Positions 2,256-61,356 of a stretch of 64,000 nucleotides of DNA are shown one piece after another. Source of the DNA: Neoarius graeffei (lineage: Eukaryota > Chordata > Actinopteri > Siluriformes > Ariidae). The stretch is taken from positions 48,939,521 to 49,003,520 of the forward strand of contig NC_083587.1 of the NCBI RefSeq assembly GCF_027579695.1, given 5' to 3'. The position numbers were made by a program, and so were the translations under genes. Within the stretch, counting starts at the first letter, position 1. Every line of letters starts with the position of its first letter. Under the pieces are notes generated by a model that was given only the letters and a program-made list of their open reading frames with translations, was not told the origin of the DNA and made no database searches.

Positions 2256-3075
2256 TTTCTGTAGATCATTATATCAGCTTCTGAAGCCACAGCCTGTTCC
2301 ATAGGGTTCAGTCTAACCATTAAAGTATTTTCCCTCGTCAGCTACATGTGTGACATATGGAACAGATCCCTCATGCGCCAAAGCGACTCACCCTCTGAAA
2401 AGCTGCATAATTGTGTCAAAGATATAAAACATAAAGTTTTCATCAAGCTCTCATATAAAGGAAGTTTTGGCACTACATCAAACATGACATTTGACTCACG
2501 TTCAGTGGTACAGTACGATGAATTCACAGGCCAGATTATAAAAGCTCAGGGTCTGTGCTGCACTTGTGCTTTCAGTATAATTTTTCTTCAGGGATTTTGT
2601 CCTCAGTTGCATTTTAACCTAATTGAAGAGAGAGATCTGAAATAGTGTACATATTTATAATTGACCAGGTACAGGTGACTACAGCATCCACAGCAGAACT
2701 AAAAATTAATGTTTCTACACTAGGGGTGTAACACAACACCAGCTGGATGTACCTGTATCTCTGGAACTTTCTAGCAAGATTTCTATCTTCTATTTAAAGG
2801 GGAACAGAGGGCAATATATAGAGTAAATATAACAATAAAACACACATTAACGAACCTTATTCAAGACTTACAAAAGTTTTTTGTTCTAAGGTTGGAAAGT
2901 TATAGTGTTTTGAAAGTAGCTCGAGCAAACTATTTCCGCAGTTTGAACAGCCCGCCATGATATTAATTTTATCCAATCAGAATGCACGTTCATTTTCTCT
3001 GCGTAACACTCATGACGTATGTATGTGCCCAGTTGTGTTGGCTCATTGAGGTTGGGAATAGCACGTGTGAAATAC

Positions 3076-4432
3076 CTGTTTCTGCCTCTTGCGACGATTT
3101 CGCAAGTCCACGGGTGGCGCCTATCTCATTGCAGCAAATAAATTCTGCTGGACTCGTGAGCAACTCCATGTTACATTTTCCGCACGAGCACCACGCCGTG
3201 TCACCTGCACGCAGACGCTCTGCCCCACGCTCGCCATGCCCATGGTCAGCATCAGTCTCATCCAGGCCCCGCGCCAGGAACAGTTTACTAAGGGGGCAAT
3301 TAGAAATCGCAAGGGGGCAAATATTTTTCATATAGTGTGTAGTAGTGATGGCGGTCTGACAACGTGTTTCAAACAATTAACTGCGCCAACCACAAAACCA
3401 CGGCCCCGAAGGTTGCTTTAGTATGGGAAAATCATGTGACATATTACCAGGGCAGTTTTATCAACACCCCGTGCCCACCTGTTAACCCTCCCCTCCAATT
3501 TTCTCACAGACACGCGGTACAACCGGAAAGATGCCAAACATAAAACAACACACACAAACCTACAGGCAAGTCCTTTACATTTAAAATACATACAAATAGC
3601 TCCGCGGCATGAAAACAAAACGTCAATGCAAGTCTAAGGTACTTGGCTCGGCGGCCAAAATCATAATTTAAAAAAAAAATCAACAGACCCCGCGGCTGCA
3701 CCAGTAATAGCCTTCCTGACTCGCACCGAGTCAACGCTAACCACTTAATCCGCGATCCCAGTTTAGGCGTGTAGGGGACTAAACACTCTGAAGTGATGAA
3801 TTTTCACCCCCGCTGCATGGGGGGTGACGTCAACAACACACATTCTTACGCTATTTGCGCACAAAGCGGACCATATATGAACACATACACCGACATAAAC
3901 GGAGATAAACTTAGCCTACAAAGAAAGAAAATGGATTCACAATATTGTGATTGAATTCGTTTAATTCGGTGGGGGAAAGACTACTCCCGTAAACTGACTG
4001 CATATTACAGGATATTGCAGAGACAGTGCACTTGTAAGTGTAGACTACATGTAAAACCCCCGCCCGCCCGCACGACCCCTCCCCTTGTCCTTATCACAGG
4101 TCTGTGTGTGCGCGGCTGTGTCAGCATTTCACACATACACCCACAATAACAATTAAGAAAACAATTAAGTGATCTGAGTCTCCGTTGAGGGGGCAGGGCT
4201 GTAGCCACAAGGGGGCGATGCCCCCTTTCGCCCCCCCCACGGCGCCGGGCCTGTTCTCATCCTCGCCGTCATCTGAGCTTTCTTCTCTTATTTCATCACC
4301 GGAGTCGAGAGTACCTCTCCGAGGTTCAAACTGGTACCCTTCTAAGCCATAGCCTGCTTGCAGTGTGTCTTGCGGGATCTCTTCGTATGATTCGACAGAG
4401 CTGTCGCTTTCACTTGATGCGCCCGACGCCAT
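3076..4432 (-). pseudogene. P2X7-C-terminal-domain-like gene, first exon split by a hAT-like element
   Basis: Reading from ATG at 4432, the protein opens with an acidic, Ser-rich leader. It contains GLEGYQFEP (like the PYQFEP motif of fish proteins often labelled P2X purinoceptor 7-like) and runs in frame to DDGEDE at 4254. The same frame resumes at 3262 with DETDADHGHGERGAERLRAG, then the zinc-ligand signature WCSCGKC and FICCNEI of the P2X7 cytoplasmic C-terminal domain. A good donor (ACAG|GTATTT) ends the exon at 3076. Between the two parts lies a 991-bp element with an 8-bp target duplication. Removing it and one duplicate leaves one open exon of about 119 codons. The ATG context (ATCATGG) is acceptable. 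I found no second exon carrying the rest of the domain. No membrane segments are visible, so this is the small soluble type and not a channel. The present allele is probably null unless the element is spliced out. Confidence 0.72.
3263..4253. mobile_element. hAT-like DNA transposon (non-autonomous) inside a P2X7-C-like exon
   Basis: The ends are CAGGCCCCGCGCC and, reversed, CAGGCCCGGCGCC. Both sub-ends carry GGGGGC-rich blocks. The element is flanked by the 8-bp duplication GTCTCATC (3255-3262) and TTCTCATC (4254-4261), 7 of 8 identical, which is the hAT pattern. No transposase is visible inside. One mismatch in the duplication suggests a moderately old insertion. Confidence 0.75.
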
Positions 4433-4488
4433 GATTACATGCTTATCTCCTCTATTTTGGAGAGTTCCGCTAGTGCAGTGGGTAGCGC

Positions 4489-4496
4489 TGACGTCA
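4489..4496 (-). promoter_or_regulatory. CRE-like TGACGTCA upstream of the P2X7-C-like ATG
   Basis: A perfect palindromic CRE (TGACGTCA) lies about 60 bases upstream of the - strand start at 4432. A second TGACGTCA occurs at about 330-337. A promoter role is inferred only from position. From 4500 to 5090 I see AT-rich DNA with no gene. Confidence 0.35.
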
Positions 4497-5335
4497 CGGT
4501 CTTTTAAAAATGGTGACTCTTGTGCGGTTTAGCATATAAAGTATTATATTTACAATTACCAAGATATTTCGTTGTTTTCTAGTATATAAATTTTATAGAA
4601 TACTTAAGAATACGTTACTTTGTCACATCAGCAACTGTATATATTATATTTGGTACCCCTTTAAAGGACATAACTGGAACACCACATGCACCTTCCCTGG
4701 TAAAAGACGTGTACTAAAGGTGCAAAAGGCATACCCTTAATGGTACCAACAATGTATATTTTGGCACCTTTATTTCTGAGAGTGTAGGTTTGCGTTTAAA
4801 AAATAAACCTGTAATATCAGGAATATAGAACGATGTTTGTTTATCCATTCTAACTGAAAGCTTCCATTTACACTCACCTGTTCTTGGCTGGCAGGAGTGG
4901 AACCCAATGTGGTTTTCTGCTGTTGCATGCTGAGATGCTTTTCTGCTCACCACGGTTCTAAAGAGTTGCTATGAGTTACTATATGGCTAAGAACAAGTGT
5001 AGTATCTGTTCTTATCAGTTTAATATCTGATATGTTCTCTCAATGAGAGTGTTTATATTAAACAGAGTTTTAGAACAGGGAGCTAAAATAGGGTAGGGCT
5101 CTACACTAACTTTTTTTTTTTTCAGGAGCACACGTGCTCCTAAGTTAAAAATTTTAGGAGCACAGGGAAAAAAATGGGGGCACAAGTAGGTTTTCATTTT
5201 AAAGGTTTATTGCAGCGCAAGCCTTAGACACACCAACACATATAAAACGCAAAATTCAATTGAGAATGAATGAATGAACAAATGAATGAATGAACAAACA
5301 AATGAATAATGAACAACTGAATGAATGAACAAACA

Positions 5336-7811: not shown

Positions 7812-8455
7812 GCGTCTCATCTCGTCTTCATCCGCTTATCCGGGGCCGGGTCGTGGAGGCAGCAGTCTGAGCATGGAAGCCCAAACTTCCCTTTCCCCAG
7901 ACACCTCAGACAGCTCCTCGGGAAGAACACCGAGGCATTCCCAGGCCAGCCGAGAGACATAGTCCCTCCAGCGTGTCCTGGGTCTTCCCCGGGGCCTCCT
8001 CCCAGGGGGATATGCCTGGAACACCTCCCCAGGGAGGCGTCCAGGAGGCATCCGAAAGAGATGCCCGAGCCACCTCAGCTGATTCCTCTCGATGTGGAGG
8101 AGCAGCGGCTCTACTCCGAGCTCCTCCTGAGTGACTGTACGTCTCACCCTATCTCTAAGGGAGTGCCCAGCCACCCTGCGAAGGAAACTCATTTCGGCCG
8201 CTTGTATCCGCGATCTTGTTCTTTCGGTCATTATCCAAAGCTCATGACCATAGGTGAGAGTCGGAACGTAGATCGACCGGTAAATCGAGAGCTTCGCCTT
8301 TTGGCTCAGCTCCTGCTTCACCACGTTGGACCGGTAAAACGGCCACATCACTGCGGAGTCTGCACCGATCCGCCTGTCGATCTCACGCTCTATCCTTCCC
8401 TCACTCGTGAACAAGATCCCGAGATACTTAAACTCCTCCACTTGAGGCAGGACTA
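7812..8455 (-). mobile_element. Rex3 (RTE-clade) LINE, 5'-truncated
   Basis: The - strand encodes the C-terminal part of Rex3 ORF2, open over about 200 residues: VEEFKYLGILFTSEG, YVPTLTYGHELW, LLHIERNQLRWLGHLFRMPP, RPRGRPRTRWRDYVSRLAWE. Upstream RT motifs are missing. An 11-bp duplication CTTCTTCTATA (7801-7811 and 8456-8466) frames the insertion, so it is a clean target-primed 5'-truncated copy sitting in a SINE tail. Confidence 0.88.
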
Positions 8456-8489
8456 CTTCTTCTATATCCTTCCTGGCAAAAAAAAAGCT

Positions 8490-8850
8490 CAAACCAACCT
8501 GGCCATTTTCCTCTGACCTTTCTTCTCAACAAGATGTTTGTTTCCACCCACAGAACTGTTGCTCGCTCACTCACTCAGTGTTTTTTGTTTTCGCACCATT
8601 CTGTGTAAACTCTAGAGACTGTTGTATGTGAAAACCCCAGGAGATCAGCACTTTCTGAAATACTCAAACCAGTCCATCGGGCTCAAACCAACACACATGC
8701 CACAGTGAAACTCACACTTTGAGATCCCAATTTTTCCATTTGAACTTTTACCGAAGCTCTTGATTTGTATTTGCATGATTTTATGCATTGTGCTGCTATC
8801 AAGAGATTGGCTGATTAGAGGAGCGTATAAAACCAGCAGGTGGATGTATT
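8490..8850. repeat. Dispersed DNA-element fragment (probable)
   Basis: Phrases such as CACCATTCTGTGTAAACTCT, AGAGACTGTTGTATGTGAAA and GCATGATTTTATGCATTGTG match, from memory, a repeat widespread in fish genomes. No ends or target duplication are visible. From 8850 to 10187 I see no gene or clear repeat. Confidence 0.4.
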
Positions 8851-11342: not shown

Positions 11343-11713
11343 AGAGGGCAGCATGGTGGTGTAGTGGTCAGCACTGTCGTCACACAGCAAGAAGGTCCTG
11401 GGTTTGAGCCCAGCGGCCGAAGAGGGCCTTTCTGTGTGGAGTTTGCATGTTCTCCCCGTGTCCGCGTGGGTTTCCTCCGGGTGCTCCGGTTTCCCCCACA
11501 GTCCAAAGACATGCAGGTTAGGTTAACTGGTGACTCTAAATTGACCGTAGGTGTGAATGGGAGTGTGAATGGTTGTCTGTGTCTATGTGTTAGCCCTGTG
11601 ATGATCTGGTGACTTGTCCAGGGTGTACCCCGCCTCTCGCCCATAGTCAGCTGGGATAGGCTCCAGCTTGCCTGTGACCCTGTACAGGATAAGCGGCTAC
11701 AGATAATGGATGG
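11343..11713 (+). mobile_element. tRNA-derived SINE, full length
   Basis: The head has an A box (TGGTGTAGTGG) and B-box-like GGTTTGAGCCC. The body is standard and the tail is GGATAAGCGGCTACAGATAA followed by TGGATGG. A perfect 10-bp target duplication ATGTATAAAG flanks it (11333-11342 and 11714-11723). An AT dinucleotide run lies just upstream (11276-11300). Confidence 0.92.
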
Positions 11714-22690: not shown

Positions 22691-22960
22691 CATTTCTTCA
22701 ATGATATCGGAGTTATTTTATTCTTCATTCATTCATTGATGAGTGCTTTATCCTCATCTGAGTTCCATATTTCTGTGTGTCTATCCCCAACTACTCACTG
22801 CATATCTTCTCTATTTTGTTCATTGATTTATTCATTCATCTTCTGTCAGCACTTTATCCTGGTCAAGATGGTGATGGACCTGACGCCTATTCCAGGAACA
22901 CTGGATGCAGAGGAGGAAAACACCTCAAATGGTCCAACAGTCCATTACATGGCAAATATA

Positions 22961-24563
22961 CAACCCCGATTCCAAAAAAGTTGGGACAAAGTACAAATTG
23001 TAAATAAAAACAGAATGCAATGATGTGGAAGTTTCAAAATTCCATATTTTATTCAGAATAGAACATAGAGGACATATCAAATGTTTAAACTGAGAAAATG
23101 TATCATTTAAAGAGAAAAATTAGGTGATTTTAAATTTCATGACAACAACACATCTCAAAAAAGTTGGGACAAGGCCATGTTTACCACTGTGAGACATCCC
23201 CTTTTCTCTTTACAACAGTCTGTAAACGTCTGGGGACTGAGGAGACAAGTTGCTCAAGTTTAGGGATAGGAATGTTAACCCATTCTTGTCTAATGTAGGA
23301 TTCTAGTTGCTCAACTGTCTTAGGTCTTTTTTGTCGTATCTTCCATTTTATGATGCGCCAAATGTTTTCTATGGGTGAAAGATCTGGACTGCAGGCTGGC
23401 CAGTTCAGTACCCGGACCCTTCTTCTACGCAGCCATGATGCTGTAATTAATGCAGTATGTGGTTTGGCATTGTCATGTTGGAAAATGCAAGGTCTTCCCT
23501 GAAAGAGATGTTGTCTGGATGGGAGCATATATTGCTCTAGAACCTGGATATACCTTTCAGCATTGATGGTGTCTTTCCAGATGTGTAAGCTGCCCATGCC
23601 ACACGCACTAATGCGACCCCATACCATCAGAGATGCAGGCTTCTGAACTGAGCACTGATAACAACTTGGGTCGTCCTTCTCCTCTTTAGTCCGAATGACA
23701 CGGCGTCCCTGATTTCCATAAAGAACTTCAAATTTTGATTTGTCTGACCACAGAACAGTTTTCCACTTTGCCACAGTCCATTTTAAATGAGCCTTGGCCC
23801 AGAGAAGACGTCTGCGCTTCTGGATCATGTTTAGATACGGCTTCTTCTTTGAACTATAGAGTTTTAGCTGGCAACGGCGGATGGCACGGTGAATTGTGTT
23901 CACAGATAATGTTCTCTGGAAATATTCCTGAGCCCATTTTGTGATTTCCAATACAGAAGCATGCCTGTATGTGATGCAGTTCCGTCTAAGGGCCCGAAGA
24001 TCACGGGCACCCAGTATGGTTTTCCGGCCTTGACCCTTACGCACAGAGATTCATCCAGATTCTCTGAATCTTTTGATGATATTATGCACTGTAGATGATG
24101 ATATGTTCAAACTCTTTGCAATTTTACACTGTCGAACTCCTTTCTGATATTGCTCCACTATTTGTCGGTGCAGAATTAGGGGGATTGGTGATCCTCTTCC
24201 CATCTTTACTTCTGAGAGCCGCTGCCACTCCAAGATGCTCTTTTTATACCCAGTCATGTTAATGACCTATTGCCAATTGACCTAATGAGTTGCAATTTGG
24301 TCCTCCAGCTGTTCCTTTTTTGTACCTTTAACTTTTCCAGCCTCTTATTGCCCCTGTCCCAACTTTTTTGAGATGTGTTGCTGTCATGAAATTTCAAATG
24401 AGCCAATATTTGGCATGAAATTTCAGAATGTCTCACTTTTGACATTTGATATGTTGTCTATGTTCTATTGTGAATACAATATCAGTTTGAGATTTGTAAA
24501 TTATTGCATTCTGTTTTTATTTACAATTTGTACTTTGTCCCAACTTTTTTGGAATCGGGGTTG
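22961..24563 (-). mobile_element. Tc1-like transposon, full length (family II)
   Basis: The ends CAACCCCGATTCCAAAAAAG are inverted, embedded in imperfect inverted repeats of about 200 bp, with TA duplications at both flanks. The length is 1603 bp. It is the best preserved of the four family II copies here (others at 17793, 30098 and 32624). Confidence 0.95.
23181..24257 (-). pseudogene. Tc1 DD34E transposase with a single visible stop
   Basis: About 358 codons. From ATG 24257: an HTH region (IVEQYQKGVRQCKIAKSL, SSSTVHNIIKRF), then a TGA at 24048-24050 where the copy at 32624 has AGA (RES-E-R-IS). The frame then stays open to the end: [33 protein letters not shown] with the first [14 protein letters not shown] with the second D, and [12 protein letters not shown] with E. 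The D-to-E spacing is 34 residues. Only one disabling change is evident, so the family was active recently in evolutionary terms. The copy is presumably inactive now. Confidence 0.92.
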
Positions 24564-24565
24564 TA

Positions 24566-24940
24566 TTAATTTAATAACATAACACCACTGCTCTTAAAAG
24601 TAGATGGCCTTTCAATTTCATAAAATCGGTGAAATTTAGTTCCGTCTGAAATTTGGTCATTGTGATGTATGTTTATTTCTGTAATAGCTAAAAAAAAAAA
24701 AGCACAAAAATACGGGCCATTCTGTGGCTGAGAAGTTATTTAATTTGAGGGGATTCCCCTAGCAAATAATGTGCATGAAATCACTCGTTTCACGCAGTCA
24801 AGCAGACAGAGGAACTCCGTGTGAGCATGTGCACGCTTACCGTTGTCGTCGTCGTTCTTCTCTATCTTTTGGGTTTTACGGCAGCTGGCACCCAGTGTTG
24901 CATTACTGCCATCTACAGGTTTACCTTGACCATGCACTGA
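24566..24940. other. No gene seen
   Basis: AT-rich spacer between a Tc1 element and a SINE, with no recognisable feature. Confidence 0.4.
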
Positions 24941-24949
24941 CAGTTACAT

Positions 24950-25334
24950 CATCTCATCTCATCTCATCTCATTATCTGTAGCCGCTTTATCCTGTTCTAC
25001 AGGATCGCAGGTGAGCTGGAGCCTATCCCAGCTGACTACGGGCGAAAGGCGGGGTACACCCTGGACAAGTCGCCAGGTCATCACAGGGCTGACACATAGA
25101 CACAGACAACCATTCACACTCACATTCACACCTACGGTCAATTTAGAGTCACCAGTTAACCTAACCTGCATGTCTTTGGACTGTGGGGGAAACCGGAGCA
25201 CCCGGAGGAAACCCACGCGGACACGGGGAGAACATGCAAACTCCACACAGAAAGGCCCTCGCCGGCCACGGGGCTCAAACCTGGACCTTCTTGCTGTGAG
25301 GCGACAGTGCTAACCACTACACCACCGTGCTGCC
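24950..25334 (-). mobile_element. tRNA-derived SINE, full length
   Basis: A young-looking reverse copy: tail (ATCTC)n, CGCTTTATCCTGTTCTACAG, body, and head at the right end. A perfect 9-bp duplication CAGTTACAT flanks it (24941-24949 and 25335-25343). From 25344 to 25860 nothing is recognised. Confidence 0.92.
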
Positions 25335-25864
25335 CAGTTACATTATTATGTCACTAAACGAACAGCTGATCACACCGAGGTGCTTGCTGACCACCGATAT
25401 TCATTAGTTTGGTCCTGCGTTTCCTTTCCTTCACAACATATCTCTTCTTCTCGCTTTCTGTTACTGTAGTCGGTCTTTCATGTTTCATTTGCATCTTCCA
25501 TTTTTCTCTCCTGTTTCAAATTTGTATCCCACAATGCCTTGCATGAACAGGGAAAGCCCACCATGTGATGCATGATGTAGTATCTTGAATTGGGTCACGG
25601 TGAAGCAAGAAAAAAATAGCTGAGAATTTAGGGCCACGTGGCCCTAAATTCATTAATTGTTCTATTAAAAAAAAATTATAAAATTGGAAGTCTGTGATTC
25701 GATTTCAGTAGCTTTTGGTCCGCTAAACAAAAATAATTGGGTGGCAGAGAAAATTATTTTTATGACCTTAACTTGAAAAATCTGAAAGGCAGTATAGCTT
25801 TAATTCTCCTAACATATAGGAAGTATATTGACCACTTTTTACTGCAGCTGTAGAATATCATCAT

Positions 25865-27595
25865 CAGATTTTCCCACTAGACACGTGAATGGTCATGGGG
25901 CTTGCAACTTAAATAAGTTGCATGATGTCCTTTTTGTCCATGCATGTTTTTATCAATTGTCTTTTTTCAATGTTCCATATTTTCTCCATTTTACCCCAAT
26001 TTCACCTTTTATCGAATAGGACCTGTTTGAGGGAAGTATTGTCCATTCTACATAGATGACCAATATAGTGGAGATGTTGAATATGGCAAAATTCTTCAAT
26101 TCGTTGGCTCTGGGTCATCTCATGGAGATGAGAGTTAGAGATTTAGGATCTGTGTTCTTCCTGGCAAACCCGCCAGCAACCATTTTCCTAAGAAAACTGT
26201 TCCAAATAACGTCCAGTCTCTTGGCCTCTGCTGATGAGAGTTGCCATGCTTGGACACTATATAGTAATCTGCTCCGTACGCACACGTTTAATATCTTTAT
26301 ACGTGTAGAAAGATATATCTCGCGGTCCGTCAGAAATTGTTTCAGTTCATTCCATTTTTCAAAGGCCAAGGATATGCGTTGGTGAAGAAAGGCCGAAGAA
26401 TTGCTGGTGTTTGTGTCCAAGATAGCGAAATTGCCTTACGTTTTTCAGTGGAATCCCATCTACCATAATAAGGCTCTTCTGGTCTTTCAAACCCTCACTG
26501 ACATTAAAAGCCATGGTCTCAGTTTTTTTGTATGACATACATAGGCCGTATCGCTTGAAAGTATTATCGTAGATCTCAAGTATTTCTTGAAGCTCACTTA
26601 TGCTTTCGGAGAAAACATCATCATCAGCATATAGAAGTTCTGTAACTCTGATCGTGCCATATGCCTTTCCAGTACGTAGATCACGTGGAGACGCCTCGTT
26701 TGGTATAACACAATCTATTTTTGCTCCAGACTCCAGAAACTTTTTAGAGATCTCATGCTTGGCGCAACGCATCACAAAGTCCATATAGATGTTAAACAGG
26801 TTAGGGCTTTCAAGTGCCCCTTGTCTACATCCGACAAATGTATCGAAGAAGTTCCCCGTGTTCTTAATGCAGGCTTTAGTACCTGTATATAAGGCTTTTA
26901 GGATTGATATAAGTTTGCAACACCTTAGGCGGATTTCAAGTACTCTAAACAAAGCTTCGCGAGGAACCCAATCATAGGCAGCTTTGAAATCTATAAAGCA
27001 TGCGAAAAGTGGTTTTCGTTCTTGTTCTAGTACGTGTCTGACAATGAAAATGGCATCACATGTAGATCTATTTTTTCTAAATCCAAACTGTGTTGGCATT
27101 ATGATGGCTTCATAGACTGTTCTTATTCTTTCCACAATGACCATAGAAACGAGCTTAGACAGAGTGGCAATGATGGATAGGCCGCGGTAATTCTCTGCCA
27201 GGAGTCTCGATCCCTTCTTATAAAGGCATGTTATGGAAGATAACCATGTACAGGGAACTCTTGCATGATTCCAAATCATGCCCAGCAGTATAACCAAATA
27301 TACTAAAAGCTTCTGGGAATTAGAGTATTTTAGGTGTTCACCAGTGATTCCATCAGTCCCTTGGCATTTGCCATTTTTAAACATTGAAAGGCATTTCTTT
27401 TACCTCAGCAGCTTCTGGTGCCTTTTCATCAATTGAATTTAGATCTTCTGGAGGCAAAATATGCTGGTATTCCTCGGGATGAGATAGTTCTGGTTGCATT
27501 TTGAAATCTCTCTTACCCAAGTGATGGGTAAAGTGTTCCTCAAGCTTTTGGGGTTGGATCAGCTGCTGTTTGACATTAACAATACTGGGTTACAT
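25865..27595 (-). pseudogene. Non-LTR retrotransposon reverse transcriptase, clade uncertain
   Basis: The open core (27384-26359, 341 codons) carries RT landmarks in order: GKCQGTDGITGEHLKYS; TQFGFRKNRSTCDAIF; motif A FACFIDFKAAYDWV; motif B-like GCRQGALESPNLFNIY; motif C ELLYADDDVF; then QFRYLGHK. After a frameshift the thumb and tail continue (26420-26115), with KILNVCVRSRLLYSVQAWQL, and further decayed text to about 25870 (KIWNIEKRQLIKTCMDKKDI). Upstream, 27595-27385 reads EEHFTHHLGKRDF and HPEEYQHILPPEDLNSIDEK in another frame. It does not look like Rex3, L2 or the other LINEs in the window. An endonuclease domain is not visible. Confidence 0.8.
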
Positions 27596-27599
27596 AAAA

Positions 27600-27830
27600 A
27601 ATAGCCTTGGTGAAATTCACAAAGACAAAAGCATGTCACTGATCCATGCAATAAACATACGATAATTAATGTCCTGTTTGACACCAACCATGCACACTTT
27701 TGTTATTCTTCTCCATGTAATGTGGGGCTCTGACCTCCCTGTAACAAATTAGTGGCACTTATTTTGATTAAAACATTTCACAAGTCAAAATAAGAGACGT
27801 TTATGCTTGTGATTTACAGCCCAAATTTCC
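27600..27830. other. No gene seen
   Basis: A spacer with no recognisable coding or repeat structure. Confidence 0.35.
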
Positions 27831-27899
27831 CTGCATGTTCAGCAGCTCTGAAGTTCATACATTGTGGACCTTGATGCACAATTCCCACTCACTTGTTCC

Positions 27900-28241
27900 A
27901 GCTTGTCCCACTTGTGCATGTAGGGTTGCTGCCATCTGGACCCTATTGATCCACATGTCATATCTTAATTGGAGCATAGTTTTACACCAGATGCCCTTCC
28001 TGCCGCAACCCTCCCATTTCTAGGCTTGGGAAACAACCATTGACTAAGGACAATTTAGAGTAGCCAGTTAACCTACGGTAAGTGCATGTCTTCGGACTGT
28101 GGGGGAAACCAGAGCACCTGGAGGAAACCCACACAGCATGCAAACTCCGCACAGAAAGGCCCCCGAATGCCACTGGGCTCGAACCCAGAGCCTTCTTGCT
28201 GTGAGGCGACAGTGCTAACGACTACACCACCGTGCCACCCC
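27900..28241 (-). mobile_element. SINE, head shared and 3' end of another subfamily
   Basis: The right half (28043-28241) is the reverse standard body and head, ending ACTACACCACCGTGCCACC. The left half has a different tail (TTTTACACCAGATGCCCTTC, CTGCCGCAACCCTCCCATTT), also seen in part at 48600-48785 and 60830-60990. It therefore belongs to a tail-variant subfamily. Confidence 0.75.
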
Positions 28242-28859
28242 TTGATGGTCCAAGAAATGCCTTTGTAGATAGTCCAGTTTCTTTAGCTGCCCTGCTGAAT
28301 AATGAATCTTGGTCTAGCCTGACAATAACATCAGAATTAGCAGGAAGATCAGATGTATGTCACATGATCATATTTTTCAGATTTTGAACCTCATTTAAAT
28401 GTGGGCAGTATGGCCGCATTTACATTATAGGGCTTGATGCACAATTCTGATATTTTGACAGAGATCGGATTTGATTTTGCATTAGGCTGAAAACTTTTTT
28501 TACCAGAACCATCATTGTGATTTGAACATACCTCAATCGCGATCATTTTCTTAGCATTTCTACAAAATACTGAACATTAAGAGGTCATTATAACATCATA
28601 TGAGTTATAATGATGAGATACAGGAGGACAAAAGACTCCTTTCAGCTGCTCTTGCAAGCACTGCAATAATCTGTTTTACTAACCTCAATCTCATGGAAAT
28701 GTGGTTGAACCTAGATGTCAGGAGTCGGGGAATGGACACAACAACTTTCACATCAACAGTGCATTGCAATGGTAATGTGCTGGTTTGGAATGGGAGATGG
28801 TTATTGCATTCTGGTGCTTTGATTTCTTTCATAACAAGATACAAGGTATGTGATTCTTT

Positions 28860-29060
28860 TATTCAAGATTCAAGAGAGCTTTATTGCCAATACACCCATG
28901 TACAAATATACAGCGCATTGAAATCCCATTTCCCTCAGGCTCCCCATGGTTTATTGCCATACAATAGTGTTTGGGGGTAATTTGGATTGGTATAGCTCAT
29001 GAGTCAATAATAAACAGGAAACAATACACAAAACAAAACAAGATAATTAAGTAACTCAGC
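28860..29060 (-). repeat. LINE 3' end fragment
   Basis: The phrase TTCAAGATTCAAGAGAGCTT, then TATTGCCAATAC, is a common reversed 3' end of fish CR1/Rex1-type LINEs. No coding part is attached. From 28245 to 28860 there is nothing recognisable. Confidence 0.55.
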
Positions 29061-29112
29061 ATAACAATGACAATAATGTCAGCATTAACAGGCAAATTGG
29101 ATGTGATGGGGA

Positions 29113-29180
29113 GTATAATGGTGCAATGGTTAACATTGTTGCCTCACAGCATACAGGTTCTGGGTTCAAACCAGGGCTGT
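29113..29180 (+). mobile_element. SINE head fragment
   Basis: Only the pol III promoter part remains: ATGGTGCAATGGTTAACATT (A-box-like) and GGTTCAAACCA (B-box-like). The body is absent. From 29180 to 29760 I see open but unrecognised DNA. Confidence 0.55.
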
Positions 29181-30097
29181 TTCTAGCTATTGAAAAGACC
29201 AGGGCTGTCAAGTTTTCCTGGGGCTTGTATTTGTCAAGGGAGATTGGCATTGATAGGTTGGTGAGGTTATATCTAACTTTACAAGAAATATTATCACCCA
29301 CACACAGTCAAAGCCGATGGCATCTTTGAGTGATATTTGCATTGCGCTTTTTAAATTGACGTTCACTTCAGTTTCTGTCTCCTTATTGTTATCATCGTCA
29401 CTGGCTGTCCATCGCTAGCGATGCTTCATTACGATGTGCAGAAATCTCCTTTCCTATAATGAAGCACCTTGCACAGTATGGTCAGACAAACAATGTCGTG
29501 TCCCCATCGTGTTGTCTCTCTGGACCTCCAGACCTGATGCCAAGTGGTGCACAAAAGTGCTACAAACCTGACAGGTATGGAAGTTGTCCCGCAGTGACAA
29601 CTGACTTGCCAAGTGATGCCATCCATTGGCCATTTGAGTGGCTCTTCTGCATGTCATCTGGTGGTGTGCCATTGACCTTGTTGGGTTCATCTGCCACATT
29701 GCACCAAAAAGCACCCTGCTGCCAGCACCTTATTGGTGATGTTTAACAGGCTAAACCGACTGTCTGCTAGCTGCACAGAGTCGTCACTCAGGGTCCACTA
29801 CATCAAGACTGTGTCTGTTCCCAGAGCTAAACAAAAAGGTGGAAATATATTCAGAGAGTTTGTTCCAGTAACCTAATCAATATAAAATTAGATCATACTG
29901 ACTGTACAGCTGCTGCCAGCACCTTTGATCTAAAGGTGGGGCTATTAAATATTAGATCTCTTACATCTAAAGCGCTAATGGTTAATGAACTCACTACTGA
30001 TCAGGAGTTTAATGTACTTTGTTTAATTGAAACATGGATTAAGCCAAATGAATATATAGCATTAAATGAAGTGAGTCCTCCTGGATACAGTTATATA

Positions 30098-31639
30098 CAA
30101 CCCCGATTCCAAAAAAGTTGGGACAAAGTACAAATTATAAATAAAAACGGAATGCAATGATGTGGAAGTTTCAAAATTCCATATTTTATTCAGAATAGAA
30201 CATAGATGACATATCAAATGTTTAAACTGAGAAAATGTATCATTTAAAGAGAAAAATTAGGTGATTTTAAATTTCATGACAACAACACATCTCAAAAAAG
30301 TTGGGACAAGGCCATGTTTACCACTGTGAGACATCCCCTTTTCTCTTTACAACAGTCTGTAAACGTCTGGGGACTGAGGAGACAAGTTGCTCAAGTTTAG
30401 GGATAGGAATGTTAACCCATTCTTGTCTCATGTAGGATTCTAGTTGCTCAACTGTCTTAGGTCTTTTTTGTCGTATCTTCCGTTTTATGATACGCCAAAT
30501 GTTTTCTATGGGTGAAAGATCTGGACTGCAGGCTGGCCAGTTCAGTACCCGGACCCTTCTTCTACGCAGCCATGATGCTGTAATTGATGCAGTATGTGGT
30601 TTGGCATTGTCACGTTGGAAAATGCAAGGTCTTCCCTGAAAGAGACGTCATCTGGATGGGAGCATATGTTGCTCTAGAACAGGGGTGTCAAACCTGATCC
30701 ATAAAGGGCCATGTGGCTGCAGGTTTTCATTCCAGCCATGCAGCAGCACCCTGATTTGGCTTATTCAATCAACTGACACACCCACCCTTTAATCAAGGGT
30801 GGGTGTGGCTGCAAGTATTTGACTGTGTGAAGACAGTTCAGTTGATTGAATGAGCCAAGTCAGGTGTGCTGCTGCATGGCTGGAATGAAAACCTGCAGCC
30901 ACAAGGCCCTTTATGGATCAGGTTTGACACCCCTGCTCTAGAACCTGGATATACCTTTCAGCATTGATGGTGTCTTTCCAGATGTGTAAGCTGCCCATGC
31001 CACACGCACTAATGCAACCCCATACCATCAGAGATGCAGGCTTCTGAACTGAGCGCTGATAACAACTCGGGTCATCCTTCTCCTCTTTAGTCCGAATGAC
31101 ACGGCGTCCCTGATTTCCATAAAGAACTTCAAATTTTGATTCGTCTGACCACATAACAGTTTTCCACTTTGCCACAGTCCATTTTAAATGAGCCTTGGCC
31201 CAGAGAAGACATCTGCGCTTCTGGATCATGTTTAGATACGGCTTCTTCTTTGAACTATAGAGTTTTAGCTGGCAACGGCGGATGGCACGGTGAATTGTGT
31301 TCACAGATAATGTTCTCTGGAAATATTCCTGAGCCCATTTTGTGATTTCCAATACAGAAGCATGCCTGTATGTGATGCAGTGCCGTCTAAGGGCCCGAAG
31401 ATCACGGGCACCCAGCCTCTTATTGCCCCGTCCCAACTTTTTTGAGATGTGTTGCTGTCATGAAATTTCAAATGAGCCAATATTTGGCATGAAATTTCAA
31501 AATGTCTCACTTTCGACATTTGATATGTTGTCTATGTTCTATTGTGAATACAATATCAGTTTTTGAGATTTGTAAATTATTGCATTCCGTTTTTATTTAC
31601 AATTTGTACTTTGTCCCAACTTTTTTGGAATTGGGGTTG
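30098..31639 (-). mobile_element. Tc1-like transposon (family II) inside the L2, with deletion
   Basis: CAACCCCGATTCC ends with TA duplications (30096-30097 and 31640-31641). The transposase frame (- strand, 31436-30918) keeps the first catalytic D ([14 protein letters not shown]). It is interrupted at QVLEQ by a 256-bp hAT MITE and lacks the N-terminal HTH because of a deletion near 31415. Its remaining half reads on from 30670 to 30330. Confidence 0.93.
30680..30935. mobile_element. hAT MITE nested in the Tc1 copy
   Basis: The ends CAGGGGTGTCAAACCTGATC are perfectly inverted, inside a nearly full palindrome. The perfect 8-bp duplication CTCTAGAA (30672-30679 and 30936-30943) shows hAT-type integration. 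The uninterrupted Tc1 copies give the empty site (TTGCTCTAGAACCTGG). Confidence 0.96.
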
Positions 31640-32623
31640 TACACCAGCCTCGTCTAACTGGCAGAGGAGGGGGCATTGCGGTTATTTATAATGATTATCT
31701 AGGTGTAACACACAAACCTGGTTATAAATTTAACACATTTGAAGTTCTTCATACTCATATAATGTATGTAGCCTCGAAAAATAAGTCTACCCAGTTAATT
31801 CCGTTACTTATTATTTACAGGCCCCCGAGGCCATATTCTGAGTTTCTTTCTGAATTTGCAGATTTTATCTCAGATCTGGTTATTTCCTTAGACAAAGCTT
31901 TAGTTGTCGGAGATTTTAATATTCACTTTGATAACCCAGAAGACCCTTTAAAAACAGCGTTTGTGTCCATTTTAGATTCAGTAGGGATTAATCAGAATGT
32001 CGAGACCGACCCACAATGGTGGTCACACCCTCGATCTAATACTAACATTCGGGTTAAACGTAGAAAATATAGTCACTCTTCCATAGTCTGAAGTTATCTC
32101 AGATCATTATCTCATCTCATTCAAACTATGTCTGAGTAATAATATATGCACCTCACCATGCTACTGTATTAAACGTACATTCACGTCAACTACTGCACAG
32201 AGCTTTATAAATGATTTCCCAGAGTTATCAACTTTGATTGGGTCACTGTCAGCCCCTGCAGAACTTGATCAGGCAAGTGAATGCTTAAAGTCAACATTCC
32301 GCCATATTTTAGAAAATGTAGCTCCTCTTAAAAGGAAAATAGTCAGAAACAAAAAATTAGCACCCTGGTATAATGATGACACTCGCACATTAAAACAGAC
32401 CACTCGAAAATTGGAACGTAAATGGTGTCAAACGAAGTTGGTAGTGTTCAAATTAGCATGGAAGGAGAGCTTCCTGAAGTATAGAAAAGCTCTTAGTGCT
32501 GCTAGATCAACATATCTCTCCTCCCTAATAGAAGATAACAAAAATAATCCGAGATTCCTATTTAATACTGTAGCAAAATTAACCAGGAATAAGTCCACTA
32601 CAGACACATGCACACCTGTAGTA

Positions 32624-34211
32624 CAACCCCGAGTCCAAAAAAGTTGGGACAAAGTACAAATGTAAATAAAAACGGAATGCAATAATTTACAAATCTCAAA
32701 AGCTGATATTGTATTCACAATAGAACATAGACAACATATCAAATGTCGAAAGTGAGACATTTTGAAATTTCATGCCAAATATTGGCTCATTTGAAATTTC
32801 ATGACAGCAACACATCTCAAAAAAGTTGGGACAGGGGCAATAAGAGGCTGGAAAAGTTAAAGGTACAAAAAAGGAACAGCTGGAGGACCAAATTGCAACT
32901 CATTAGGTCAATTGGCAATAGGTCATTAACATGACTGGGTATAAAAAGAGCATCTTGGAGTGGCAGCGGCTCTCAGAAGTAAAGATGGGAAGAGGATCAC
33001 CAATCCCGCTAATTCTGCACTGACAAATAGTGGAGCAATATCAGAAAGGAGTTCGACAGTGTAAAATTGCAAAGAGTTTGAACATATCATCATCTACAGT
33101 GCATAATATCATCAAAAGATTCAGAGAATCTGAAAGAATCTCTGTGCGTAAGGGTCAAGACCGGAAAACCATACTGGGTGCCCGTGATCTTCGGGCCCTT
33201 AGACGGCACTGTGTCACATACAGGCATGCTTCTGTATTGGAAATCACAAAATGGGCTCAGGAATATTTCCATAGAACATAATTCACCGTGCCATCCGCCA
33301 TTGCCAGCCAAAAGTCTATAGTTCAAAGAAGAAGCCGTATCTAAACATGATCCAGAAGCGCAGACGTCTTCTCTGGGCCAAGGCTCATTTAAAATGGACT
33401 GTGGCAAAGTGGAAAACTGTTCTGTGGTCAGACGAATCAAAATTTGAAGTTCTTTATGGAAATCAGGGACGCCGTGTCATTCGGACTAAAGAGGAGAAGG
33501 ACGACCCAAGTTGTTATCAGCGCTCAGTTCAGAAGCCTGCATCTCTGATGGTATGGGGTTGCATTAGTGCGTGTGGCACGGGCAGCTTACACATCTGGAA
33601 AGACACCATCAATGCTGAAAGGTATATCCAGGTTCTAGAGCAACATATGCTCCCATCCAGACGACGTCTCTTTCAGGGAAGACCTTGCATTTTCCAACAT
33701 GACAATGCCAAACCACATACTGCATCAATTACAGCATCATGGCTGCGTAGAAGAAGGGTCCGGGTACTGAACTGGCCAGCCTGCAGTCCAGATCTTTCAC
33801 CCATAGAAAACATTTGGCGCATCATAAAACGGAAGATACGACAAAAAAGACCTAAGACAGTTGAGCAACTAGAATCCTACATTAGACAAGAATGGGTTAA
33901 CATTCCTGTCCCTAAACTTGAGCAACTTGTCTCCTCAGTCCCCAGACGTTTACAGACTGTTGTAAAGAGAAAAGGGGATGTCTCACAGTGGCAAACATGG
34001 CCTTGTCCCAACTTTGAGATGTGTTGTTGTCATGAAATTTAAAATCACCTAATTTTTCTCTTTAAATGATACATTTTCTCAGTTTAAACATTTGATATGT
34101 CATCTATGTTCTATTCTGAATAAAATATGGAATTTTGAAACTTCCACATCATTGCATTCCGTTTTTATTTACAATTTGTACTTTGTCCCAACTTTTTTGG
34201 AATCGGGGTTG
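32624..34211 (+). mobile_element. Tc1-like transposon (family II) inside the L2, + orientation
   Basis: CAACCCCGAGTCC begins and GGAATCGGGGTTG ends the element, with TA flanks (32622-32623 and 34212-34213). At 1588 bp it is nearly full length. Its orientation is opposite to the copy at 30098, so recombination between the two would invert the L2 segment between them. Confidence 0.95.
32934..34009 (+). pseudogene. Tc1 DD34E transposase with stop and deletion
   Basis: The N-terminal part reads TGYKKSILEWQRLSEVKMGR, meets a TGA near 33022 (LH-stop-QIVEQ), then opens again from 33030 ([33 protein letters not shown]). A small deletion near 33275 removes the [11 protein letters not shown] reading. 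From 33347 the catalytic half is open for 231 codons: [26 protein letters not shown] and [12 protein letters not shown], giving an intact DD34E triad. Confidence 0.9.
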
Positions 34212-34213
34212 TA

Positions 34214-35913
34214 TGTAGTAGCGACGATTTCATGAATTTTTTTTAATGACAAAATTGAGAATATCCGACAAAAAATTCAAACTACTAATTTAAGGTCAGA
34301 CAATGTAAGTGACCCTGTAGTTAACAACATAACTGTATCAGATCAGCAGTTAGAATGTTTTACTCCCCTAAAAGAAACTGAATTACTTTCATTAATCTCA
34401 GCATCAAAAGCCTCAACTTGTGTACTAGATCCCTTACCTACACGTCTATTCAAACAGATAATACCTGAAGTAATAGAACAGCTTCTAAAAATAATAAATT
34501 CTTCTCTTACAATTGGCTATGTACCCAAATCCTTTAAACTAGCAGTTATCAAACCCCTGAATAAAAACCTGACCTTGATCCCTGTCAGCTGTCCAATTAT
34601 TGGCCAATATCAAGCCTCCCCTTTTATCTCCAAGATCCTTGAAAAAGCTGTAGCACAGCAGTTATGCTTATATTTATATAGGAATAACATCCATGAAACG
34701 CATCAGTCAGGATTTAGACCTCATCATAGCACAGAGACCGCTTTGGTTAAAGTAGTAAACGACCTACTGTTGGCGTCTGATCAGGGCTGTCTCTTGCTGC
34801 TTATGTTGCTTGACCTTAGTGCAGCGTTTGATACCATTGATCATTCCATTCTTCTGGATAGACTAGAAAATGTGGGAGTAAAGGGAACGTCCCTCTCCTG
34901 GCTCAGCTCTTAACTGATTGCTATCAGTATGTTGATGTAAATGGTGATATTTCTAGACGTACTGAGGTAAAGTTTGATGTTCCACAAGGTTCTGTCTTGG
35001 GTCCACTGCTTTTTTCTTTATATATGTTACCTCTGGGTGATATTATTCGTAAACATTGTATTAGTTTCCACTGTTACGCTGATGACACACAGTTGTATGT
35101 TTCTGCAAAACCTGATGAGAGACACCAGCTTAATAGAATTGAGGAATGTGTGAAGGACATTAGACACTGGATGCTTATTAACTTCCTTCTGCTTAACTCA
35201 AGACTGAAGTACTTGTACTAGGACCACATGCAGCTAGAAGTAAGTTTTCTGATTACACAGTAACTCTGGATGGCCTTTCTGTTTCTTCGCGTGCAGCAGT
35301 AAAAGACCTCGGAGTGATTATTGACCCCAGTCTTTCATTCAAAACTCGCATTGATAACATCACCCAGATAGCTTTCTTTCATCTCAGAAATATTGCTAAG
35401 ATAAGAAATTTAATGTCACTACATGACGCGGAAAAACTGGTTCATGCTTTCGTTACCTCCAGGTTGGATTATTGTAATGCCTTACTGTCTGGATGTTCCA
35501 ATAAGTGCATAAACAAGCTCCAGTTAGTTCAAAATGCAGCAGCAAGAGTCCTTACTAGAACTAGAAAATATGACCACATCACCCCTGTCTTATCCACACT
35601 GCATTGGCTCCCAATCAAATTTCGTATTGATTATAAAATACTACTATTGACCTTTAAAGCACTGAATGGTCTCGTGCTACAGTACCTGAGTGAACTTCTG
35701 GTCCTCTATGACCCACCACGCCTACTTGGATCAAAAGGTGCAGGCTATCTGCTGGTACCTCGTATAGTGAAGTCTACATCAGGGGGCAGAGCCTTTTCTT
35801 ACAAAGCCCCACAGTTATGGAACAGCCTTCCAAGTAGTGTTTGGGAATCAGACACAGTCTCAGTGTTTAAGTCTAGGCTGAAAACATATCTGCTTAGTCA
35901 AGCCTTGTGTTAA
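34214..35913 (+). pseudogene. L2 LINE reverse transcriptase, with frame breaks
   Basis: The RT copies L2 RNA at the target site. Landmarks in order: LDPLPTRLFKQIIPEV; SGFRPHHSTETALV; motif [21 protein letters not shown] (34805-34864); motif [16 protein letters not shown] (34980-35024); motif [13 protein letters not shown] (35066-35101). Then come KDLGVIIDPSLSFKTRI, LDYCNALLSG, ITPVLSTLHWLPI and PQLWNSLPSSV, ending at TAA 35911-35913. Stops or frameshifts near 34230, 34911 and 35215 disable it. Catalytic residues are kept. Confidence 0.9.
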
Positions 35914-40634: not shown

Positions 40635-41148
40635 CTTTCTTCACACTCATATGAACGAAACCCTGAGGAAACCCAGGGAGAACATGCAAATTCTACACAG
40701 AAAGGCTTAGCTGCAGGGCGGCACGGTGGTGTAGTGGTTAGCACTGTCGAATCACAACAAGAAGGTCCGGGTTCGAGCCCTGTGGCCGGCGAGGGCCTTT
40801 CTGTGCGGAGTTTGCATGTTCTCCCCGTGTCCGCGTGGGTTTCCTCCGGGTGCTCCGGTTTCCCCCACAGTCCAAAGACATGCAGGTTCGGTTAACTGGT
40901 GACTCTAAATTGACCGTAGGTGTGAATGTGAGTGTGAATGGTTGTCTGTGTCTATGTGTCAGCCCTGTGATGACCTGGCGACTTGTCCAGGGTGTACCCC
41001 GCCTTTCGCCAATAGTCAGCTAGGATAGGCTCCAGCTTGCCTGCGACCCTGTAGAACAGGATAAAGCAGCTAGAGATAATGAGATGAGATGAGAAGGCTT
41101 AGCTGCTGGGCTTGAACCCAGAACCTTCTTGCTGTGAGGCAACAGTGT
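40635..41148 (-). mobile_element. Old SINE hosting a younger SINE
   Basis: The reverse SINE text CAGGGAGAACATGCAAATTC to AAAGGCTTAGCTGC is interrupted by a + strand SINE at 40715. It resumes GGGCTTGAACCCAGAACCTT to CAGTGTTAACC at 41148. Another SINE tail follows immediately. Confidence 0.85.
40715..41093 (+). mobile_element. tRNA-derived SINE, full length, nested
   Basis: Complete: head GGCGGCACGGTGGTGTAGTG, B-box GGTTCGAGCCC, tail TAATGAGATGAGATGAG. A perfect 13-bp duplication AAGGCTTAGCTGC flanks it (40702-40714 and 41094-41106). Confidence 0.95.
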
Positions 41149-43776: not shown

Positions 43777-44949
43777 GGCGGCACGGTGGTGTAGTGGTTA
43801 GCGCTGTCGCCTCACAGCAAGAAGGTCCGGGTTCGAGCCCCGTGGCCGGCGAGGGCCTTTCTGTGCGGAGTTTGCATGTTCTCCCCGTGTCCGCGTGGGT
43901 TTCCTCCGGGTGCTCCGGTTTCCCCCACAGTCCAAAGACATGCAGGTTAGGTTAACTGGTGACTCTAAATTGAGCGTAGGTGTGAATGTGAGTGTGAATG
44001 GTTGTCTGTGTCTATGTGTCAGCCATAGACGTCGCCAGACCCATTTTAGGGTAGCTCCAGCCACCCTATCTTATGGCAAAGCCACCCTATATTTTTTGCC
44101 CTTTTTAAAATTATTTATATTTTTATTTTTTTTTCCCAAAAAAAACAAAGGCAGTAAAGCACTGAACATGAGCCATCAAGAACGCAAGTTAATCCGAACA
44201 ACAGTTTCTGCTTGCTTATTTATTGTTTAATGCAATATTATTAATATCGTTATGATTCCTCCTCATTGGCTCTGTGTCAAGCGTCACGTCGAGTGGTAGG
44301 CTAGTAGGACTTAAAAAACTACGCGGGCATTCTGCAGCAGGCGCGGTGCGGGCTTCCATTGAGTTGGGTTTGCAGAGAGTCAGAATTCTATGCTTTCATT
44401 TGCAGACACACACGGTGAGATTGTAATTTGATGTCAGTGGTTTGCATTTGCTTAACTTTACCTAGGCTATATTGAGTCTTCTGTAGAATGTTTACATGAT
44501 GATTTGTGAAGCACTTGCCCTCTTCAGTTTGCGCAGGAATGCATGACACCTACCATTGTTTTTTTTCCACATTTTTGTAGTTTAGCTGGTGAAGTTGCTT
44601 CAGCAAGCAATTAAATGATGAAAGCAATTTTAAAATAGAATAGAAATGGTGGGAAGTGTGTCCCCAAGGTGTGATGCTCTTGAAATAATGAATTGATTGA
44701 CAGCCTTAGTAGGTGCTCTGAAAAATGTTCGGCGCGCGCTGCGCGCGCACAATACCTTTTCTCCTCTGGGTGCTAAGCTACCCCTGTCTCTCAAACCTAG
44801 TGACGTCCCTGGTGTCAGCCCTGTGATGACCTGGCGACTTGTCCAGGGTGTACCCCACCTTTCGCCCGTAGTCAGCTGGGATAGGCTCCAGCTCGCCTGC
44901 GACCCTGTAGAACAGGATAAAGCGGCTAGAGATAATGAGATGAGATGAG
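43777..44949 (+). mobile_element. tRNA-derived SINE interrupted by a hAT element
   Basis: The head and body are at 43777-44023, the 3' body and (GAGAT)n tail at 44812-44949. A perfect 10-bp duplication TTTCCTGTCC frames the SINE (43767-43776 and 44950-44959). Confidence 0.93.
44024..44811. mobile_element. hAT-like element inside a SINE
   Basis: A perfect 8-bp duplication GTGTCAGC (44016-44023 and 44812-44819) flanks it. The ends CATAGACGTCGCCAGA and, reversed, CAGGGACGTCACTAGG share GACGTC. A GCGCGCGCTGCGCGCGC palindrome lies near 44733. It is 788 bp with no transposase. Confidence 0.88.
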
Positions 44950-52295: not shown

Positions 52296-52956
52296 CAGCG
52301 TTTCTCAACCTTTTTTCAGTCACGGCACCCTTCAGAAGTATGGAAATTCTCAAGGCTCTCATCTCATTATCTCTAGCCGCTTTATCCTGTTCTACAGGGT
52401 CGCAGGCAAGCTGGAGCCTATCCCAGCTGACTACGGGCGAAAGGCGGGGTACACCCTGGACAAGTCGCCAGGTCATCACAGGGCCGACACATAGACACAG
52501 ACAACCATTCACACTCACATTCACACCTACGGTCAATTTAGAGTCACCAGTTAACCTAACCTGCATGTCTTTGGACTGTGGGGGAAACCGGAGCACCCGG
52601 AGGAAACCCACGCGGACACGGGGAGAACATGCAAACTCCGCACAGAAAGGCCCTCGCCGGCCACGGGGCTCGAACCCGGACCTTCTTGCTGTGAGGTGAC
52701 AGCGCTAACCACTACACCACCGTGCTGCCCTCAAGGCACCCCTATATAAAATATACGCAGTCACGCTGACCATACGCTGACCCCGGCAGTGACGTTGTGA
52801 CATGGAAAAGGGGGCCGTGAGACAAATTTTGATGATGCATGAGGTGGCGATGATCTGCGTTAGTGTAACTATAATTTTTTGGAATTTTAATTCATTTTAT
52901 TTATTTCAATGTTAGAATATATAATTTTTTAACGGCACCCCGGTTGAGAAAGGCTG
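52296..52956. mobile_element. hAT MITE hosting a SINE
   Basis: The ends CAGCGTTTCTCAACC and, reversed, CAGCCTTTCTCAACC are flanked by the 8-bp duplication AGCTAGAG (52288-52295 and 52957-52964). Confidence 0.92.
52357..52729 (-). mobile_element. tRNA-derived SINE nested in the hAT MITE
   Basis: A full-length reverse copy with little divergence. The 8-bp CTCAAGGC duplication is at 52349-52356 and 52730-52737. Confidence 0.93.
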
Positions 52957-53653: not shown

Positions 53654-54174
53654 CAAGCCAGAAAGTCTGCACACCCCTTTCACCGTCTCCACGTTTTATA
53701 ACGTTACAGACTTGTTCTACAATAGATTGAGTTCATTTTTGTCACAAAATTCTACACAAAATAGCCCATAATGACAAAGTGAAAGCAAGTTTTTAGAAAA
53801 TATGCAATTTTATTTTACTGACAAAAATAGGTTATTTAGGGGTTACATATTTGTCCACACCCTTAGCCTAATACTTGGTTGATGCACCTACGGCAGCAAT
53901 TACAGCTTCAAGGCATCTTGGGAAAGAAGCTATGAGCCTGGCACTAGGGTTATGACTGTGAAAGTGTTTTCAAAATTTCTACTTTCCTGATGTTGCATTT
54001 GGTGAACTTTTACTCATATATTACTTTTTTGAAGTTATTTTTATTGGGTCATGCAAAAACCTCCAGCACCCAACATCACCTCACTTTTGATAAATACATG
54101 TATATTAAATAAATAAATCATGATTATAAAATAAATTCATTGAAAGATGTGTAAAGTACTTTTATATAACAATA

Positions 54175-54231
<57 letters not shown>

Positions 54232-60996: not shown

Positions 60997-61009
60997 AAGC
61001 CAGAGTCTT

Positions 61010-61356
61010 CATCTCATCATCTCTAGCCGCTTTATCCTGTTCTACAGGGTCGCAGGCAAGCTGGAGCCTATCCCAGCTGACTACGGGCGAAAGGCGGGGT
61101 ACACCCTGGACAAGTCGCCAGGTCATCACAGGGCTGACACATAGACACAGACAACCATTCACACTCACATTCACACCTACGGTCAATTTAGAGTCACCAG
61201 TTAACCTAACCTGCATGTCTTTGGACTGTGGGGGAAACCGGAGCACCCGGAGGAAACCCATGCACGCACGGGGAGGCCCTCGCTGGCCACGGGGCTCGAA
61301 CCCGGACCTTCTTGCTATGAGGCGACAGCGCTAACCACTACACCACCGTGCCGCCC
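61010..61356 (-). mobile_element. tRNA-derived SINE, full length
   Basis: A reverse copy with a perfect 13-bp duplication AAGCCAGAGTCTT (60997-61009 and 61357-61369). It inserted at the tail of the previous SINE. Confidence 0.94.

Follow-up and report, generated by a model that had tools for sequence, protein, structure and literature searches.

In the window, by which the whole 64-kb stretch of DNA analysed here is meant, two minus-strand reading frames are separated by an insertion, and the question raised by the locus is whether a host gene has been broken there by a transposon. The earlier note had read the frames as a P2X7-C-like exon interrupted by a hAT element. The analysis supports this interpretation in part: the exon and the insertion stand, and the apparent gene disruption becomes a case of nested transposons, very probably a hAT within a nonautonomous KolX-bearing Kolobok, with composites that probably spread from two founders.

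The split exon and its insertion

The observation that 3263-4253 splits a minus-strand exon with WCSCGKC...CCNEI is confirmed. The features of the locus are:

4262..4432, minus strand: KolX exon 1, first part, with the ATG at 4432 and an acidic stretch with GYQFEP
3076..3262, minus strand: KolX exon 1, second part, with WCSCGKC...CCNEI at 3122-3193
3074-3075, minus strand: GT of the exon donor CAG/GT after 3076, phase 1
3263..4253, unstranded: nonautonomous hAT-like element, 991 bp, without a transposase match
3255..3262, unstranded: hAT target site duplication GTCTCATC, an 8-mer flanking the insert
4254..4261, unstranded: second duplication copy TTCTCATC, its first base altered privately in this copy

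The minus-strand frame from the ATG at 4432 reaches the insert at 4253 and, with the insert and one 8-mer skipped, resumes at 3262. After their removal the frame is open from the ATG to the CAG/GT donor and onward, giving a 147-codon ORF; the two frames are thus one exon, which carries, as had been claimed, the WCSCGKC and CCNEI motifs and a good splice donor. The whole stop-free frame comprises 179 codons. It is longer than expected by chance: when the 864-bp element (the outer element described below) was dinucleotide-shuffled 1000 times, this length was reached in only 4, and only 7 of 2000 exon shuffles stayed open in frame 0. Codon position 1 of the exon is G-rich (45% G).

The hAT superfamily is characterised by short inverted ends beginning with CAG. 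The termini of the insert, CAGGCCCCGCGCC and GGCGCCGGGCCTG, are complementary at 12 of 13 positions, and CAGGCCC-type starts were found in eight copies inspected. The flanking 8-mers are identical at 7 of 8 positions, in keeping with the 8-bp duplication of hAT elements; across the 64 kb a duplication of at least 7/8 accompanies 16 of 4573 near-perfect 13-nt inverted pairs, the 3263-4253 insert included. No Pfam transposase match was obtained for the two ORFs inside the insert or the three crossing its borders. A first look at the genome gave 1019 candidates, and copies elsewhere share the borders of the window copy. The identification as a hAT-like insertion holds; among the best 40 read, the duplication is 8/8 in 32, 7/8 in four, and less or unreadable in four. 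The duplications of copies elsewhere have no common 8-mer, except in L064-L066, which share a flank. The mismatch in the window is a T at 4254, where the other readable composites have G (L052, with an unreadable left 8-mer, is outside this comparison). The 7/8 duplication is a private change of the window copy and therefore says little about age, which weakens the argument formerly drawn from it against a very recent event.

Relationship of the exon to the P2X7 ballast domain

The joined exon matches the Pfam family P2RX7_C at profile positions 72-101 with E=0.003, although its 17.9 bits lie below the family cut-off of 23.5. A phmmer search against PDB chains did not find P2X7 and gave an unrelated weak match only, and an HMM built from three mammalian P2X7 tails failed to distinguish it: the joined exon (E=12) and the uninterrupted second part (E=7.8) are both outscored by other frames of the window. 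Two loci of the same genome that score with P2RX7_C align with the joined exon in tblastn searches (L073, 7.8e-7; L072, 1.6e-6), run with composition correction off on partly acid-rich sequence. The alignment with L073 spans GLEGYQFEP and WCSCGKC...CCNE, with one stop within the L073 stretch, and GYxFEP is common to the window exon and other KolX-like loci. The alignments with these two same-genome loci are stronger evidence than the Pfam, PDB and mammalian-profile tests. A pattern scan of IMG/VR matched five stretches, none of which encodes a relative.

All three cysteine clusters of P2X7 lie within one exon, exon 13, as described in PMC7016195. From this layout the window exon holds only cluster 1 and the CC; it has neither cluster 3 nor the CIT half of cluster 2. 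The KolX content of the element is limited to exon 1, with 17.9 bits against the cut-off of 23.5, which two related loci exceed.

Scanning the genome with P2RX7_C at E<=0.001 produced 245 candidates, and of the 150 scored at least 124 were matches; 0 of 14 control genomes gave any. The best match, C18:32477945-32478322, is a single-exon ballast with all three cysteine clusters, the layout of P2X7 exon 13. The remaining matches mostly extend over one part of the profile, its first (ending at 110-129) or its last. In a fully read pair on contig C1, the first exon carries WCVC...CC...CIS and the second IPSCAVWRIR, and the window exon is laid out like the first of these. Four match regions (L071-L074) were inspected. 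In such genomes, exons that resemble P2X7-C may belong to KolX transposons, and a warning to this effect is in order.

As a separate observation, six matches to the second part of P2RX7_C (L071 and C1:85039063-93924402) are spread across about 9 Mb of contig C1, and two of the six have a match to the first part some 1.4-1.9 kb off; these could be a cluster of two-exon ballast genes.

The outer element

The exon lies inside a second, larger element with the following features:

2794..2797, unstranded: TTAA target site duplication, left
2798..4660, coding on the minus strand: nonautonomous Kolobok element, 1863 bp long including the hAT and 864 bp without the hAT and one 8-mer
2798..2825, plus strand: left terminal inverted repeat AGGGGAACAGAGGGCAATATATAGAGTA
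4633..4660, minus strand: right terminal inverted repeat AGGGGTACCAAATATAATATATACAGTT
4661..4664, unstranded: TTAA target site duplication, right

Of the inverted repeats that surround the exon, the longest joins 2793-2824 to 4634-4665. The element ends, AGGGG...CCCCT, match at 19 of 28 positions and start directly at the TTAA on both sides; among Markov-simulated flank pairs, 1 of 3000 reached the observed 19/27. The motif TTAAAGGRR occurs four times in the 64 kb, and two of the four flank the exon, facing inward. Koloboks have TTAA duplications and RR...YY termini (PMC9587614), and AG...CT is present at 2798 and 4660, which distinguishes the element from piggyBac. Xenopus Koloboks likewise combine TTAA with AGGRR ends, for example AGGGGAACTATCATGA (PMC6004289). 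According to PMC9587614, KolX is an accessory protein of Kol0-lineage Koloboks, similar to residues 476-595 of human P2X7, and has been proposed as the origin of the P2X7 tail, or ballast domain.

A DDE transposase with THAP, as in an autonomous Kolobok, was not found inside. The element is filed as nonautonomous only, because its longest frame (in the 864-bp form) is the 179-codon exon frame and no transposase lies within. A putative membership in Kol0 is drawn from the ends and KolX rather than from a transposase, as no autonomous element sharing these ends came to light. Relatives of the Kolobok or the hAT element were absent from the 64 kb at E<=0.01.

Genomic copies and drift of the exon

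The window's own genome (2.34 Gb, 38 contigs) was searched with the right half of the Kolobok, which yielded 1291 first-look candidates, the best 40 scored being 98-100% identical. The 40 scored Kolobok copies and the 40 scored hAT copies are the best-scoring ones, more diverged copies being missing, and the fractions below are therefore not a census. Altogether 45 distinct Kolobok copies were read: 25 lack the hAT, 17 hold it reversed and three hold it as in the window. L036 (the same place as L045) and L009 (the same place as L001) were left out of the set; L034, a local duplicate of L035, is counted among the 45 and the 17 and was excluded from the four-gamete and divergence analyses. The TTAA is present at both ends in 40 of the 45 copies, and the bases beyond differ, except in the pair L034/L035. 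The empty site that the earlier note had expected can thus be found, in the form of paralogous transposon copies (25/45).

By alignment, the exon frame is open in 35 of the 40 testable copies (20/22 empty, 13/16 reversed, 2/2 in window orientation) and broken in five; the test set is the 45 copies less five that are split by other insertions. Non-CpG substitutions in the exon give N/S = 43/11 = 3.91 against 2.83 expected, and CpG substitutions 41/35 = 1.17 against 1.35. The exon drifts near neutral expectation across the sampled copies, and the open frame probably reflects a young family rather than maintenance. Given the youth and neutral drift of the sampled copies, the open frame can be explained without either of the two options offered previously, a gene hit recently or a gene that was dispensable. 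Without CpG, divergence in the Kolobok part is 0.68% among empty copies against 1.07% among reversed composites; the lower value may be an effect of sampling, because the empty copies were picked as the best Kolobok matches.

A different insertion, about 380 bp long, is common to L024 and L038, where it lies at one site (Kolobok left-half positions 323-336) with a 14-bp overlap. This may be another example of a nested insert that recurs at one position.

What was interrupted is KolX exon 1 within a multicopy, TTAA-flanked Kolobok, not a host gene. If the hAT had disabled a ballast gene of the host, of nanor or P2X7 type, this would account for the open frame, the ATG, the zinc-ligand motifs and the donor, and domesticated KolX genes such as nanor have been proposed in fish (PMC9587614), but this reading is highly improbable. 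The same exon recurs, almost unchanged, in many TTAA-flanked copies across the genome and drifts neutrally. Inspection by eye of the 3 kb downstream showed no exon 2 and no other ballast exon, nor did a mammal-only HMM, itself a weak detector of the window exon. Of the clusters united in P2X7 exon 13 (PMC7016195), the exon has just cluster 1 and the CC, and a full single-exon ballast sits elsewhere, at C18:32477945-32478322. Copy number, TTAA ends and neutral drift speak against a host P2X7 or nanor gene for this copy.

Composites with the hAT in both orientations

Forty-three hAT copies were read (the best 40 together with L022, L034 and L035, which came from the Kolobok search). Twenty-three lie elsewhere and 20 in the Kolobok, all 20 at one 8-bp site, three in window orientation and 17 reversed. 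A junction pattern search found nine places, against none with the control pattern: six with at most one mismatch, all in window orientation, and three with two mismatches, one of them the reversed copy L058. Three further window-orientation composites from this search bring the total to at least 23, six in window orientation and 17 reversed.

Two deletions in the hAT are specific to orientation. A 10-bp deletion occurs in 16/17 reversed copies, 0/6 in window orientation and 7/23 elsewhere, and a 5-bp deletion in 4/6 copies in window orientation, 0/17 reversed and 0/23 elsewhere. These indel markers were used because a tree of the 43 hAT copies did not separate the founders, the copies being mosaic: over 42 copies, the four-gamete test fails for 135 of 190 site pairs. 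Their distribution favours two founders, each multiplied with its own Kolobok. Among 15 reversed composites, the differences between copies (without CpG) are about equal in the Kolobok (1.07%) and the hAT (1.22%). Seven sites distinguish 10 haplotypes among 15 reversed copies, all carrying the 10-bp deletion and chosen without L034 and L047, and many site combinations of reversed copies occur outside composites too. The mosaicism could come from gene conversion among copies or from repeated insertion; we infer the former, because the orientation-specific deletions were retained.

For the presence of both orientations at one site, the presumed spread of two founder composites by Kolobok transposition has to be weighed against two other routes. 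Perhaps one in-place event would suffice: a single founder insertion might later have been inverted, through aberrant excision and rejoining or through recombination between the 13-bp ends. Both orientations do occupy the same site with mostly perfect duplications, and the reversed L047 lacks both the 10-bp deletion and the 5-bp insertion, like four of the six window-orientation copies. Apart from L047, however, the orientations carry different hAT subtypes; this route is regarded as unlikely. A perfect flip without a footprint is not known as a standard hAT product, which also counts against it.

Repeated, independent hAT insertion in both orientations into one site of already dispersed Koloboks is less plausible still. 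It agrees with the shared 8 bp of the two orientations, with the many composite hAT haplotypes also found in hATs elsewhere, and with the lack of any hAT at other Kolobok positions among the 43 read. It would demand an implausible target preference, given that about half of the hATs read sit in about 0.05% of the genome (some 1300 candidates x 864 bp / 2.34 Gb), whereas the duplications elsewhere, L064-L066 aside, have no common 8-mer; the rare orientation-specific deletions point to common descent. If true, it would represent a natural, near site-specific targeting of another transposon by hAT.

Proposed origin of the locus

The reading of nested DNA transposons remains by far the most probable, with composites that probably spread from two founders. 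The outer element is taken to be an internally deleted Kolobok of the Kol0/KolX type, which keeps its TTAA-flanked ends, the 5' region and KolX exon 1 with its donor and has neither exon 2 nor a transposase. It presumably multiplied recently by means of a transposase supplied in trans from a source copy not identified in this analysis. The inner nonautonomous hAT-like element would have entered the exon at GTCTCATC, after which the composite of Kolobok and hAT presumably moved as a unit by Kolobok transposition, so that copies of it now stand at TTAA sites with no relation to one another. There are two such composite lineages, with the hAT opposite-oriented at one site.

The borders, the duplications, the multicopy state, the empty copies, the neutral drift and both orientations are observed directly, and the order of events, trans-mobilisation and the choice of two founders over a founder plus a flip are deduced from them. 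As the exon belongs to a multicopy Kolobok with a hAT inside it, the locus consists of mobile elements nested in one another and is no disrupted gene of the host; the exon most likely has no function in the window copy. Several points count against the explanation. The 10 haplotypes among reversed copies are not predicted by simple two-founder amplification without gene conversion, and the exon scores below the Pfam cut-off and is missed by the mammal-only P2X7 profile and the PDB search. The Kol0 assignment draws on ends and KolX rather than on a transposase, and the empty copies diverge less than the reversed composites, which may be a sampling effect.

Other features of the window

Several further sequences were recorded in the window. 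A U2 snRNA-like sequence at 4965-5158 covers the full model with 75.4 bits (cut-off 46) and is probably a pseudogene. A cluster of large inverted repeats occupies 22958-34217, in which 23160-23914 pairs with 33261-34015 (755 nt, 97%) and 23906-24488 with 32700-33282 (98%). Inside this cluster, a 256-bp element at 30680-30935 with inverted ends CAGGGGTGTCAAA and a perfect duplication CTCTAGAA is likely a hAT MITE. Two hAT-like candidates, at 52296-52956 and 53945-54841, have perfect 8-bp duplications, AGCTAGAG and CCTGGCAC. Dispersed repeats at 11400-11684, 24957-25335, 40715-41089, 43777-44024, 52357-52731 and 61009-61275 pair at 95-98% in both orientations and are read as SINE-like. On the minus strand, a 229-codon frame at 7839-8525 appears to resemble the C-terminal region of a LINE-type reverse transcriptase, with no convincing Pfam match.

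Comparison with known systems

The WCxCx2C and CC clusters are common to P2X7 exon 13, with its ballast domain, and to the window exon; unlike exon 13, the window exon terminates in a splice donor and is apparently not joined to a P2X channel in the window (PMC7016195). TTAA duplications and RR...YY ends are shared with the Kol0 lineage of Koloboks with KolX (Kojima and Bao 2022, PMC9587614), as is, putatively, a P2X7-ballast-like protein; the window copy differs in being reduced by deletion to 864 bp, in having no more of KolX than exon 1, and in having no transposase.

The Xenopus XKol subfamilies and T2-MITE likewise combine TTAA with AGGRR ends and include amplified nonautonomous derivatives (PMC6004289). 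The start of XKol subfamily A5, AGGGGAAC, is shared by the left end in the window, the ends diverging beyond these eight bases. In contrast to the window element, a KolX exon is not mentioned for XKol or T2-MITE in the available part of that source.

The core of the finding, a hAT nested in a nonautonomous KolX-bearing Kolobok, is ordinary, and no literature on such composites of Kolobok and hAT was found, which is not a claim that they are unpublished. Less ordinary is the filling of one insertion site in both orientations across many copies. The window hAT has the 8-bp duplications and CAG...CTG ends of other nonautonomous hAT elements, but it differs in that many copies of it lie, in either orientation, at a single position within a different transposon. 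Such composites offer a multicopy system for the study of nested-element spread and sequence exchange.
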